A stretch of 52,970 bases of DNA, from assembly GCA_029261405.1 (NCBI GenBank), contig JAJDBK010000033.1:1-52970 (forward strand), read 5' to 3'. This stretch comes from Nitrospinaceae bacterium. Lineage in GTDB: Bacteria > Nitrospinota_A > UBA7883 > JAJDBK01. Below, piece after piece: positions 4,796-7,394 of this stretch; positions within the stretch are counted from its first letter, which is position 1; the number at the start of each line of letters is the position of its first letter. The notes beneath the pieces were generated by a model. The model was not told the DNA's origin. It searched no databases and saw only the letters and a program-made list of their open reading frames with translations. The translations under genes and the position numbers were made by a program.

Positions 4796-4961
4796 TTCTT
4801 CCGTTCTCTTGATTTTGTTTACCCATTGTAGATGGGATTAATCACCGCTCCAACTGATCTGTCGCAAAAGCGGACGGGTGTTTTAAAAATCTGCGGACAG
4901 TAGTGGTCATTATTTCGGGCCGAAACTTTTTAAACACTTGTAATATCAATGATTACGTAAA

Positions 4962-4977
4962 TGGCACAAGGGTTGCT
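4962..4977 (+). promoter_or_regulatory. Sigma-54 (RpoN) -24/-12 promoter
   Basis: TGGCACAAGGGTTGCT matches the -24/-12 consensus TGGCAC-N5-TTGCW with the exact GG-to-GC spacing. The predicted start is near 4988, giving a ~38-base leader to the ATG at 5026. Upstream, GCGGAC recurs (around 4871 and 4893), and CTGTC (4858) faces GACAG (4896). These could be activator sites. Transcription from such a promoter would need an NtrC-type activator, none of which is encoded in the window. Confidence 0.75.
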
Positions 4978-5025
4978 CTCTATAGAGGCATGAACACAAT
5001 AAACGATGTAACGGAGGGTAGCAGA

Positions 5026-5154
5026 ATGATGAACGACACAATGAATATCGATAGAAAAATCGCAATGATGCAGGCCTTCGGATTCGTTAGCTTCCTCGGT
5101 ATCGCCGTAAACGTCGCAATGGTCATGGAGACCCTGATCGCAAAATACATCTAG
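5026..5154 (+). CDS. Small single-span membrane protein (42 aa)
   Basis: The peptide is 42 residues: a Met- and Asp/Asn-rich start (MMNDTMNIDRKIAMM), one hydrophobic segment of about 18-20 residues (FGFVSFLGIAVNVAMVMET) and a short tail ending KYI. I do not recognise the family. It is supported as a real gene by a strong GGAGG eight bases before ATG 5026 (ATG 5029 follows at once) and by a textbook sigma-54 promoter just upstream. The stop codon TAG is immediately followed by a repeat unit beginning TGGC. A longer frame from 4903 exists but runs through the promoter, so it is rejected. Confidence 0.7.
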   Translation: MMNDTMNIDRKIAMMQAFGFVSFLGIAVNVAMVMETLIAKYI

Positions 5155-5398
5155 TGGCAGGGCCAGTGGCGCGGCCACAGCGAATAACGCTAACGCTAGG
5201 AGTGGCTGGGCCAGTGGCGCGGCCACAGCGAATAACGCTAACGCTAGGAGCCGAAAGTCTGATTACGTTTGTTCAGGCGGCCCCGCTGGGGCGGCCTTCG
5301 GGTGGCTGGGCCACAGCCTGTTTCGCTATCGCTGGGAATCGATGATCTGATTACGTTTGTTCAGGCGGCCCCGCTGGGGCGGCCTTCGGTGGTGAGTG
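5155..5398 (+). repeat. Cluster of three repeat units, plus orientation
   Basis: Two tandem copies of a ~48-bp unit (TGGC...GGCCACAGCG then AATAACGCTAACGCTAGGAG) are followed by the CCGAA...TTCGG-bracketed hairpin unit with GCCCC-GCT-GGGGC. A third, diverged copy with its own hairpin unit follows (about 5305-5398). The cluster begins at the stop codon of the 42-aa protein gene. A cluster of the same units in the opposite orientation lies at 6264-6450, so the toxin-antitoxin module between them is bracketed by inverted repeats. Confidence 0.88.
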
Positions 5399-5466
5399 GT
5401 CGCTTTGCTCCCTGCCGCCGATCTGTTTACAGGTGATTGTAATTTAGACAAGTTCCCTTCAAAAAG

Positions 5467-5511
5467 CCGTCTGCCGACACCCCCCCCCTCGGCGGGCGGT
5501 TTTTCCTTTTT
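5467..5511 (+). terminator. Rho-independent terminator
   Basis: CCGTCTGCCGA (5467-5477) pairs along its whole length with TCGGCGGGCGG (5489-5499), using two G-U pairs, across an 11-base C-rich loop. It is followed by TTTTTCCTTTTT (5500-5511). It would end rightward transcripts from the small sigma-54 gene before the convergent toxin gene. The rest of 5399-5617 holds no gene that I can support. Confidence 0.75.
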
Positions 5512-5617: not shown

Positions 5618-5956
5618 TCAGTTCAGCCCAAGGACAATTTTAAGAGCGGTCGAAATCTCTTCCCAATAATGGTTTTCCAACCGACCCTGTTTATTGGAAA
5701 TACGGGACACATCGACGGCGCGTAGTTGTTTTAAGTTAATGTGCCTTTCTTTATCACTGCCGTTTGATTTGGTGGGGACCACATTGACAACAAAAGGCCA
5801 GTTTTTGTGGCCGGGTAATAACGGGGCGACAATAACAGTTTTTGAACCCTGGTTAACAATATCGGCCTGCACTATGACACATGGACGTTTTTTCCGAGTT
5901 TCAGCCCCTTTTACGGGGTCGAGATCAACCCATCGGATTTCGAGTTGGCTATACAC
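5618..5956 (-). CDS. MazF/PemK-family toxin
   Basis: The product is 112 residues, the usual size for MazF-like endoribonuclease toxins. It starts with the family pattern EIRWVDLDPVKGAETRKKRP followed by the central strand CVIVQADIVN and the conserved TVIVAPLLP segment. Such toxins cleave mRNA at short motifs and are held inactive by their antitoxin. The gene follows its antitoxin by six bases in the same operon and reads leftward into the repeat cluster at 5155-5398. The location next to partition and replication genes fits plasmid stabilisation. Confidence 0.9.
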   Translation of the reverse strand: MYSQLEIRWVDLDPVKGAETRKKRPCVIVQADIVNQGSKTVIVAPLLPGHKNWPFVVNVVPTKSNGSDKERHINLKQLRAVDVSRISNKQGRLENHYWEEISTALKIVLGLN

Positions 5957-5962
5957 AAAACG

Positions 5963-6190
5963 TTACCCGGAAAGACCATCATCCAATGTATTGTCCCACG
6001 CAGAAAGCTCCCGCTGGTAAACGGAATCTTCCGCTTCTTCCCTGTTTGCCTCCAGAATAGCCCGCTCCAGAGAGTGGCGTTTCTCTTTTATTAACAGACG
6101 GTTGATATAAGCGCTTTTATTTTCCCCGCACGCCCCGGTCAAAAATACGTGCGCCTCATCGTCAAGTGTAATAGTGGCCCTATGTTTCAT
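5963..6190 (-). CDS. Antitoxin of the MazF-like toxin
   Basis: The product is 75 residues. The N-terminal half (HRATITLDDEAHVFL...NKSAYINRLL) has the strand-helix-helix pattern of ribbon-helix-helix DNA-binding proteins. The C-terminal half is acidic and likely disordered (EEAEDSVYQRELSAWDNTLDDG), as expected of a toxin-wrapping tail. It lies first in the operon, six bases before the toxin gene. A perfect dyad sits directly upstream over the promoter, which suggests autorepression by the antitoxin or the complex. Confidence 0.85.
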   Translation of the reverse strand: MKHRATITLDDEAHVFLTGACGENKSAYINRLLIKEKRHSLERAILEANREEAEDSVYQRELSAWDNTLDDGLSG

Positions 6191-6263: not shown

Positions 6264-6450
6264 ATTCCTAGCGTTAGCGTTATTCGCTGTGGCCGCGCCA
6301 CTGGCCCAGCCACCCCAGCGGGGCCGCCTGAACAAACGTAAACAGACTCTCGGCTTCTAGCGTTAGCGTTATTCGCTGTGGCCCAGCCACTCCTAGCGTT
6401 AGCGTTATTCGCTGTGGCCGCGCCACTGGCCCAGCCACCCCAGCCACCCC
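6264..6450 (-). repeat. Cluster of repeat units, minus orientation
   Basis: On the minus strand this reads as three copies of the GGCCACAGCG-AATAACGCTAACGCTAG unit and one copy of the hairpin unit (GCCCC-GCT-GGGGC). It is the mirror of the cluster at 5155-5398. It begins about nine bases after the stop codon of the tyrosine recombinase gene and ends next to the promoter of the antitoxin gene. Copies within the cluster are nearly identical, pointing to recent duplication or gene conversion. Confidence 0.88.
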
Positions 6451-6458
6451 AAACCCAC

Positions 6459-7394
6459 TTAATAATTGACGGCGAAGCTGGCGCTTTCTCTGTGTTTGAG
6501 CAGGCGTTTATCGTACATCTGGGTTGTTACTATTTTTGCGTGACCTACCGATCTTTGCACCGCTTCGATGGGGCAGTTGCGGTCGAGGGCCCGTGTTATG
6601 AAGGTTGCGCGGGCGGAGTGGGGTGTTACCCCTTTTGGTAACGCTACTATTTTTGCGTAGTGATGGAATATGTTGTTTAGCTGGCGCGGGTCGAGCGGTT
6701 TTTTGATCCATGGTCGGATGACCGAGAGGATGAGAGGGGCGGCTCTGTCGTTTTCGTGTCTTGTCTCGTCCAGATAATGGCGTAACGCTATGGTCAGTTC
6801 CTGATTAACCGCGAGCATGTTTCTTTTACCACCTTTAACGGTAAAATCGAGGACCTGATACCCGGCGTCTTCGTAGAAGTCCTTCACCTTTAAGGAAGAC
6901 ACCTCCGCTACGCGGCACCCTGTATAGAAGAGTACCGACAAGATAGCCTTGTCCCGGATACCTTTCAATCGACGTGTGTCGGGGGCGTCTAGCATCTTGC
7001 GTACCTGTTCGACTGTTATTACCGGAGTCTTTACCCGATCCATATCGACCTTCGGACGTTTCACACCGACGGTCGGGTTTCGTTTGGCGGCCTGTTTTTC
7101 GCACAGATGTTTAAAGAGTGAGGAGATGGCGGAGATTCTGGAATTGATGGTCTTCTCGCTGGCGTTGGCTTTTATGAGCGCGTCGCGCCACGCGATGACA
7201 TGCGCCTGATCGACGATGCGTAACTGGTTCGGATTGGTAATACCGTGAAACGCCGTGAACTCGGTAACGGCGTTTTTGTAAGCCCGTTTCGTCCGGTCAG
7301 ATATGAAATTCGCCAACCACACACTTTCGTGCGGCACACTTACCGTCGGCGCGCCCGGTCTGGTCCTGATGAGGCTTTTTGGTTTATTGTTCAT
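6459..7394 (-). CDS. Tyrosine recombinase (XerC/XerD-like integrase)
   Basis: The product is 311 residues and has the full catalytic set of a tyrosine recombinase: Arg161 (TGCRVAEV), Lys190 (KGGKR), His259-x-x-Arg262 (HSAR), His285 (GHAKI) and nucleophile Tyr294. The N-terminal SAM-like core-binding domain spans roughly residues 20-105. The length is Xer-like and there is no sign of the extra helix that marks integron integrases. Its 3' end is nine bases from a repeat cluster. It may resolve plasmid multimers, or act on the repeats; the second idea is inference from position only. Confidence 0.92.
   Translation of the reverse strand: MNNKPKSLIRTRPGAPTVSVPHESVWLANFISDRTKRAYKNAVTEFTAFHGITNPNQLRIVDQAHVIAWRDALIKANASEKTINSRISAISSLFKHLCEKQAAKRNPTVGVKRPKVDMDRVKTPVITVEQVRKMLDAPDTRRLKGIRDKAILSVLFYTGCRVAEVSSLKVKDFYEDAGYQVLDFTVKGGKRNMLAVNQELTIALRHYLDETRHENDRAAPLILSVIRPWIKKPLDPRQLNNIFHHYAKIVALPKGVTPHSARATFITRALDRNCPIEAVQRSVGHAKIVTTQMYDKRLLKHRESASFAVNY

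Follow-up and report, generated by a model that had tools for sequence, protein, structure and literature searches.

The micro-protein locus in the window (the whole stretch of DNA that was analysed, 52,970 nt from a Nitrospinaceae bacterium) is probably a member of a sigma-54 regulon of its order, in which one NtrC-type activator would control peptides, RNAs and cytochromes; the micro-protein would tune a membrane complex and C-rich loops would repress mRNAs. We put the probability of this reading at roughly 70%. At the level of sequence, the members have in common an upstream site joined to a sigma-54 promoter and comprise micro-proteins under selection, RNAs without an ORF, C/U-rich terminator loops and b561-type cytochromes. 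The sequence evidence for this regulon of tiny membrane proteins, regulatory-type RNAs and cytochromes in a little-known order is strong, and it has not been described before.

Promoter and upstream activator site

In the promoter TGGCACAAGGGTTGCT the GG and GC elements are 12 nt apart in the context TGGCAC-N5-TTGCW, and a putative AAA+ activator site lies upstream at -102, both of which are features of sigma-54-dependent promoters. It is the sole match to TGGCAC-N5-TTGCW in the window with zero or one mismatches. Since about one match with a single mismatch is expected per window by chance, the motif counts for little by itself. In the whole genome (G000) we found 5 exact matches versus 1 for the reversed pattern, located upstream of two peptide genes, flgB, a fliO-like operon and a 58-aa ORF. 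The combination of promoter and ORF in the window stands far above chance because the same spacing (62–74 nt from promoter to ORF) and a related peptide recur at five further places: contigs C18 and C76 of G000, two loci in G001 and one in G003. The distance from promoter to start codon is 64 nt in the window copy (contig C33), 63 nt in C18 (TGGCACGGGTGTTGCT) and 68 nt in C76 (TGGCGCGAGTATTGCA). The expected frequency of one-mismatch motifs would favor a reading of promoter and ORF as chance matches. Against this, their arrangement is conserved at six places and the site recurs specifically across the order, and on these comparative sequence data we regard that reading as already refuted. The preliminary description had proposed a sigma-54 promoter with exact -24/-12 spacing, which agrees with the canonical site found here and retained in the homologues.

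Coordinates of the features at the micro-protein locus in the window
Feature	Position	Strand	Basis
Putative upstream activator site TGTCGCAAAAGCGGACG (TGTC-N9-GACR)	4860..4876	+	102 nt before the -24 element; recurs at other peptide promoters
Putative second activator half site GGACA	4895..4899	+	spacing as in C18 (-67 vs -65)
Sigma-54 -24/-12 promoter TGGCACAAGGGTTGCT	4962..4977	+	consensus match with exact spacing; kept in all paralogues and homologues
Shine-Dalgarno sequence GGAGG	5013..5017	+	sequence; 8 nt before ATG 5026
42-aa membrane micro-protein MMNDTMNIDRKIAMMQAFGFVSFLGIAVNVAMVMETLIAKYI	5026..5154	+	paralogues, codon-position divergence, one predicted helix
Repeat-rich stretch in the 3' UTR, from ORF to terminator	5155..5410 (right end approximate)	+	absent from C18
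Terminator hairpin aagccgtctgccga-CACCCCCCCCC-tcggcgggcggttt followed by a T run	5464..5502	+	highest-scoring terminator-like hairpin in the window

Repeated and inverted motifs upstream of the promoter had been suggested as activator sites, namely GCGGAC (at 4870 and 4893) and CTGTC (4859) facing GACAG (4896). These motifs are real, and they are probably better read as the site TGTCGCAAAAGCGGACG followed by the half site GGACA. The site has the form TGTC-N9-GACR with the consensus TGTCCTGAWAYCGGACA. Of the six peptide promoters, five carry it: four exactly at -101/-102 (window, C18, G001a, G001b), and the one of G003 at -60. C76 carries the sigma-54 promoter and lacks the activator site. When the sequences were dinucleotide-shuffled 500 times, no palindromic motif reached more than three of the six promoters, versus five in the real sequences. 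The genome has exactly two places where the GGACA half site follows the first site, each at a peptide promoter, and the composite of activator site and sigma-54 promoter is found once in the window and not at all in 300 dinucleotide shuffles. Recurrence of the upstream site next to the sigma-54 promoter supports the earlier idea that the promoter would be dedicated and activator-dependent.

The 42-aa peptide and its homologues

A second ATG at 5029 is an equally possible start of the peptide. Hydropathy fits one membrane span, and the predicted structure is one helix comprising residues 2–41 (AlphaFold, mean pLDDT 90.8). A six-frame search revealed paralogues in the same genome with 57% (C18) and 48% (C76) identity to the window peptide, as well as a distant homologue in G003 of the same order (37%); two copies in G001 (29%) were recognized by profile searches and promoter context. 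Between C33 and C18, changes at the three codon positions number 12, 11 and 23 over 42 codons. Because third-position changes dominate among the copies of this genome, the peptide is under selection at the protein level. The C18 copy adjoins a TsaD gene, whose product has its best named match in Nitrospinaceae bacterium UBA7883 (60%); this one protein points to a probable place in Nitrospinota.

The window peptide had no match in Pfam and no credible one in NCBIfam; its relatives gave Pfam matches at chance level alone, and an NCBIfam lpxC match to one relative (E 0.0026) is implausible given a length of 42 aa. Scans with a profile of the peptide alignment yielded no relative in genome contigs and none in viral contigs. 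Weak profile matches (E 0.05–1) within long frames of other genomes were judged to be chance, except for G001 C4:336384, which we consider real since it has the promoter. A search for the promoter combined with an F-G codon motif returned mostly chance matches and was discarded.

The single-helix membrane protein of 42 residues with a strong Shine-Dalgarno sequence that the preliminary description had predicted is thus confirmed by GGAGG, homologues, selection and the predicted helix. It had also made its interpretation depend on the peptide being conserved wherever relatives keep the promoter. This holds at C18, C76, G003 and both G001 loci; at one orthologous-looking locus of G006 the promoter is kept without the peptide, which is the outcome that had been named as refuting.

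A regulon across the order

We searched for a composite pattern, a site of the TGTC-N9-GACR type joined to a sigma-54 promoter, and used the reversed pattern as control. The composite pattern gave 25 matches in 12 genomes of the order versus 4 for the control, and these include false matches, several of them within coding sequence; in 11 genomes of the sister class there were 0 matches versus 2 for the control. Behind the plausible matches we found three kinds of product: tiny transmembrane peptides, RNAs without an ORF, and b561-type cytochromes. The peptides of the regulon have 27–42 residues, those behind these matches (G001, G003, G004, G006, G009) 27–40 and one hydrophobic stretch, with one to three per locus, in some relatives in tandem and differing from each other. 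Further small hydrophobic peptides were found at G001 C4:484458, G003 C24, G004 C42, G006 C237, G009 C25 and G009 C54. At six loci (G000 C80, G006 C45, G008 C123, G009 C51, G010 C173 and G011 C30) no credible ORF is present and the unit ends in a strong terminator. Prokaryotic cytochrome b561 follows the site in G003 and G009, which represent two families of the order. G006 C45, an orthologous-looking locus, retains activator site, promoter and hairpin terminator without the peptide, so the peptide is one output of the regulon and not its sole purpose.

The micro-proteins at G009 C25 and G004 C42 (L302 and L303) have the motif LFxMDGAI in common and lie just upstream of similar-looking membrane proteins of 326–336 aa; the next ORF in G004 C42 has an iron-sulphur-like motif at its end. 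Both loci are possible electron-transfer operons. About a dozen composite matches outside the phylum were inspected, and most are in coding regions. At one of these loci (L297, G065) TGTC-N8-GGACA precedes by 83 nt a sigma-54 promoter and a secreted protein of 262 aa; possibly this is the same type of operator in a distant lineage.

C-rich terminator loops and two-hairpin RNAs

RNAs with two hairpins were identified at 5 loci in 7 copies (G000 C80, G009, G010 and, as tandem pairs, G008 and G011) and are about 105–130 nt long. In the tandem arrays (L305 in G011 C30, L312 in G008 C123) each copy has its own sigma-54 promoter, and the second copies carry TGTC-N10-GACA, which is the GlrR spacing. 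In six aligned RNAs the stems vary; the first loop contains CCCUCC and, after it, CCCC, and the second loop is rich in CCC(U/C)C. The C/U-rich loops of all six are complementary to Shine-Dalgarno sequences, with which they may pair. Compensatory double changes were found in 10 of 31 consensus pairs, and since the six sequences include two closely similar pairs, the number of independent events is smaller than 10. Rfam gave no family above threshold; nearest were ErsA (34 bits, cut-off 50) and ar14 (32–34 bits, cut-off 58.8). These sub-threshold ar14 matches (RF02344) lie in the 3' UTRs of two peptide genes, those of C18 and G003.

Several peptide mRNAs, including that of the window, end in a hairpin with a C-rich loop like those of the RNAs. 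The window loop (5478–5488) comprises 11 nt, ten of them C, and the hairpin is missed by a terminator search restricted to loops of at most 8 nt. A covariance model built from six RNA copies, leaving out G000 C80 and the peptide genes, matched G000 C80 with E 1.5e-5 and, independently, the 3' UTR belonging to the peptide gene of G003 with E 5.9e-7. For the hairpin of the window E was 0.29, by itself not significant and no better than chance matches on the reverse strand. In 287 kb of G000 we found 11 strong terminators, of which 3 have C-rich loops, all located downstream of units with activator site and sigma-54 promoter, in a sample that is biased to these loci. A clear C-rich hairpin is absent from the peptide transcripts at G001 C4:484458, G003 C24, G004 C42 and G006 C237.

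In C18 only about 90 nt separate stop codon and hairpin, and C33 has a repeat-rich insertion at this position. The repeat GAATAACGCTAACGCTAGGA lies at 5182 and 5230 (+), with inverted copies at 6266, 6355 and 6391 (-). Within 5618–6190 and 6459–7394 of the window are a PemK/MazF-like toxin gene, its upstream partner of 75 aa and an adjoining tyrosine recombinase. Inverted repeat copies flank the toxin pair on both sides, an arrangement that suggests a mobile cassette.

Candidate activators and known systems

G000 encodes 19 NtrC-type proteins. None of the ten that were scanned reaches any known family cut-off, and GlrR, the PEP-CTERM response regulator, AtoC, NtrC and NifA were therefore rejected as activator among these ten. 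The best GlrR candidate in G000 is 44% identical and scores 385 bits against a GlrR cut-off of 763. The site of Myxococcus NmpR, GCGCA-N5-TGCGC (PMC11841059), is unlike ours, and no site of our type was found in the study of the PEP-CTERM regulon (PMC9850573).

Several known systems are close parallels. In Enterobacteriaceae the short RNA GlmY is transcribed from a sigma-54 promoter under GlrR (QseF) with upstream palindromes TGTC-N10-GACA (PMC8745638). Our RNA genes resemble it in promoter and TGTC palindromes. However, most sites have N9, with N10 limited to the second copy in each RNA tandem (G008 and G011), no GlrR equivalog was found among the ten proteins scanned, the site also drives micro-proteins and cytochromes, and the RNAs have C-rich loops without an Rfam match to GlmY. 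The ar14 RNAs (NfeR1 in Sinorhizobium) are anti-Shine-Dalgarno sRNAs of about 120 nt with CCUCC-type motifs in unpaired hairpin loops (PMC10746234). A C/U-rich, putatively anti-Shine-Dalgarno loop is also present here; in contrast, the hairpins of ar14 number three and carry CCUCCUCCC, and its promoter is without a sigma-54 signature, whereas our RNAs have two hairpins and a sigma-54 promoter and remain below the RF02344 gathering score. Co-transcription of a small protein with sRNAs from one alternative-sigma promoter, ending at a Rho-independent terminator, is known from CcaF1-CcsR1-4 of Rhodobacter sphaeroides (PMC10253847). CcaF1 is an RNA-binding DUF1127 protein of 71 aa under RpoH, unlike the single-helix membrane peptides under sigma-54 described here; in the regulon peptides, which are hydrophobic helices, DUF1127 (the CcaF1-CcsR/CIN1 feature) had no match. 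Each of these three memberships thus fails on at least one defining feature tested.

Two further systems are functional analogies. RepG of Helicobacter pylori pairs with its targets through the C/U-rich loop of its own terminator hairpin (PMC8295292). The C/U-rich terminator-hairpin loops described here may be likened to it. To our knowledge RepG involves no peptide and no tandem copies, and its sequence and promoter are unrelated to the regulon RNAs. The Qrr sRNAs of Vibrio, several per genome, depend on sigma-54 and an NtrC-type activator. They differ from our regulon in activator site and RNA structure and come without micro-proteins.

Alternative explanations

The other good sigma-54 promoters of G000 are those of flagellar genes (flgB, flgF, one hook-related gene, fliO), and the peptide gene might accordingly belong to a flagellar sigma-54 regulon. 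We reject this as highly improbable: the TGTC-N9-GAC site is absent from all of these promoters, as it is from that of glnA, and the peptide genes are located at unlinked isolated loci. Independent of this question, the promoters before flgF, the hook-related gene, flgB, fliO and glutamine synthetase (L060, L068, L069, L076 and L079) outline the predicted flagellar and nitrogen part of the G000 RpoN regulon. Another promoter of this genome, TGGCACACTAGTTGCT (L012, C43, 5407–5656), precedes a cytosolic-looking ORF of 58 aa divergent from an O6-methylguanine methyltransferase-like gene. In a sister family (L112 in G022, L113 in G013) a conserved sigma-54 promoter and a strong Shine-Dalgarno sequence precede a secreted protein beginning with MQKTLTIVAAALAFGIAGTAYA, which is unrelated to the peptide.

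Tiny single-helix peptides present in multiple copies in isolated transcription units also recall small hydrophobic toxins, of type I toxin-antitoxin systems or holin-like. This is improbable in our view, as a common positive activator site and co-regulated cytochromes are ill-suited to a repressed toxin and some relatives have two to three different peptides in tandem. Moreover, an unsystematic look recognized no antisense RNA partner, and the scan of viral contigs no viral relatives. The micro-protein could instead be the sole product of the window locus, with C-rich loops being a neutral property of terminators in this lineage. Selection on the protein, the regulon peptide transcripts that have no C-rich hairpin and the weak match of the window hairpin to the RNA model are in keeping with this. 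We nevertheless find it unlikely, given that in the biased terminator sample such loops are confined to the regulon, that members without an ORF have two such hairpins with compensatory changes, and that G006 C45 retains the hairpin without the peptide.

Proposed mechanism and implications

In the regulon reading that we prefer, a single NtrC-type activator would bind TGTCC-N7-GGACA about 100 bp upstream of the promoter and switch on short, mostly isolated, terminator-ended transcripts in response to one signal. Located in the inner membrane, the micro-protein would tune a membrane complex, perhaps a respiratory one, given that the operator is also found at cytochrome genes. Loops rich in C (CCCUCC, CCCCCU) would mimic anti-Shine-Dalgarno sequences, pair with the G-rich Shine-Dalgarno sequences of their targets and repress these mRNAs. 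Transcripts of the window type would then be dual-function, acting as mRNA and as carrier of a regulatory 3' hairpin. The preliminary description had expected a function in stress or at the cell surface. The sequence data do not show this; the sole functional neighbors in the regulon are b-type cytochromes. Its promoter, activator sites and translated single-helix peptide with homologues are supported by sequence; it did not foresee the RNAs without an ORF, the cytochromes and the C-rich terminator.

A further step, which we advance tentatively and rate as less likely than not, is that activator and sigma-54 control a dual-function family of micro-protein plus 3' anti-Shine-Dalgarno hairpin with RNA-only versions, in which membrane tuning and translational repression are switched together and which evolved by gain or loss of either half. 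If true, one promoter would present an evolutionary series from peptide mRNA through mixed transcript to pure regulatory RNA, and this series would bear on the origin of sRNAs derived from 3' UTRs.

Regulons of uncultivated lineages can rarely be read from sequence, and here an operator at a fixed position reveals a whole one. It includes types of gene that ordinary annotation misses, namely tiny peptides and RNAs of about 120 nt, and any metatranscriptome that contains these bacteria could serve as a test of both the RNA family and the operator pattern.
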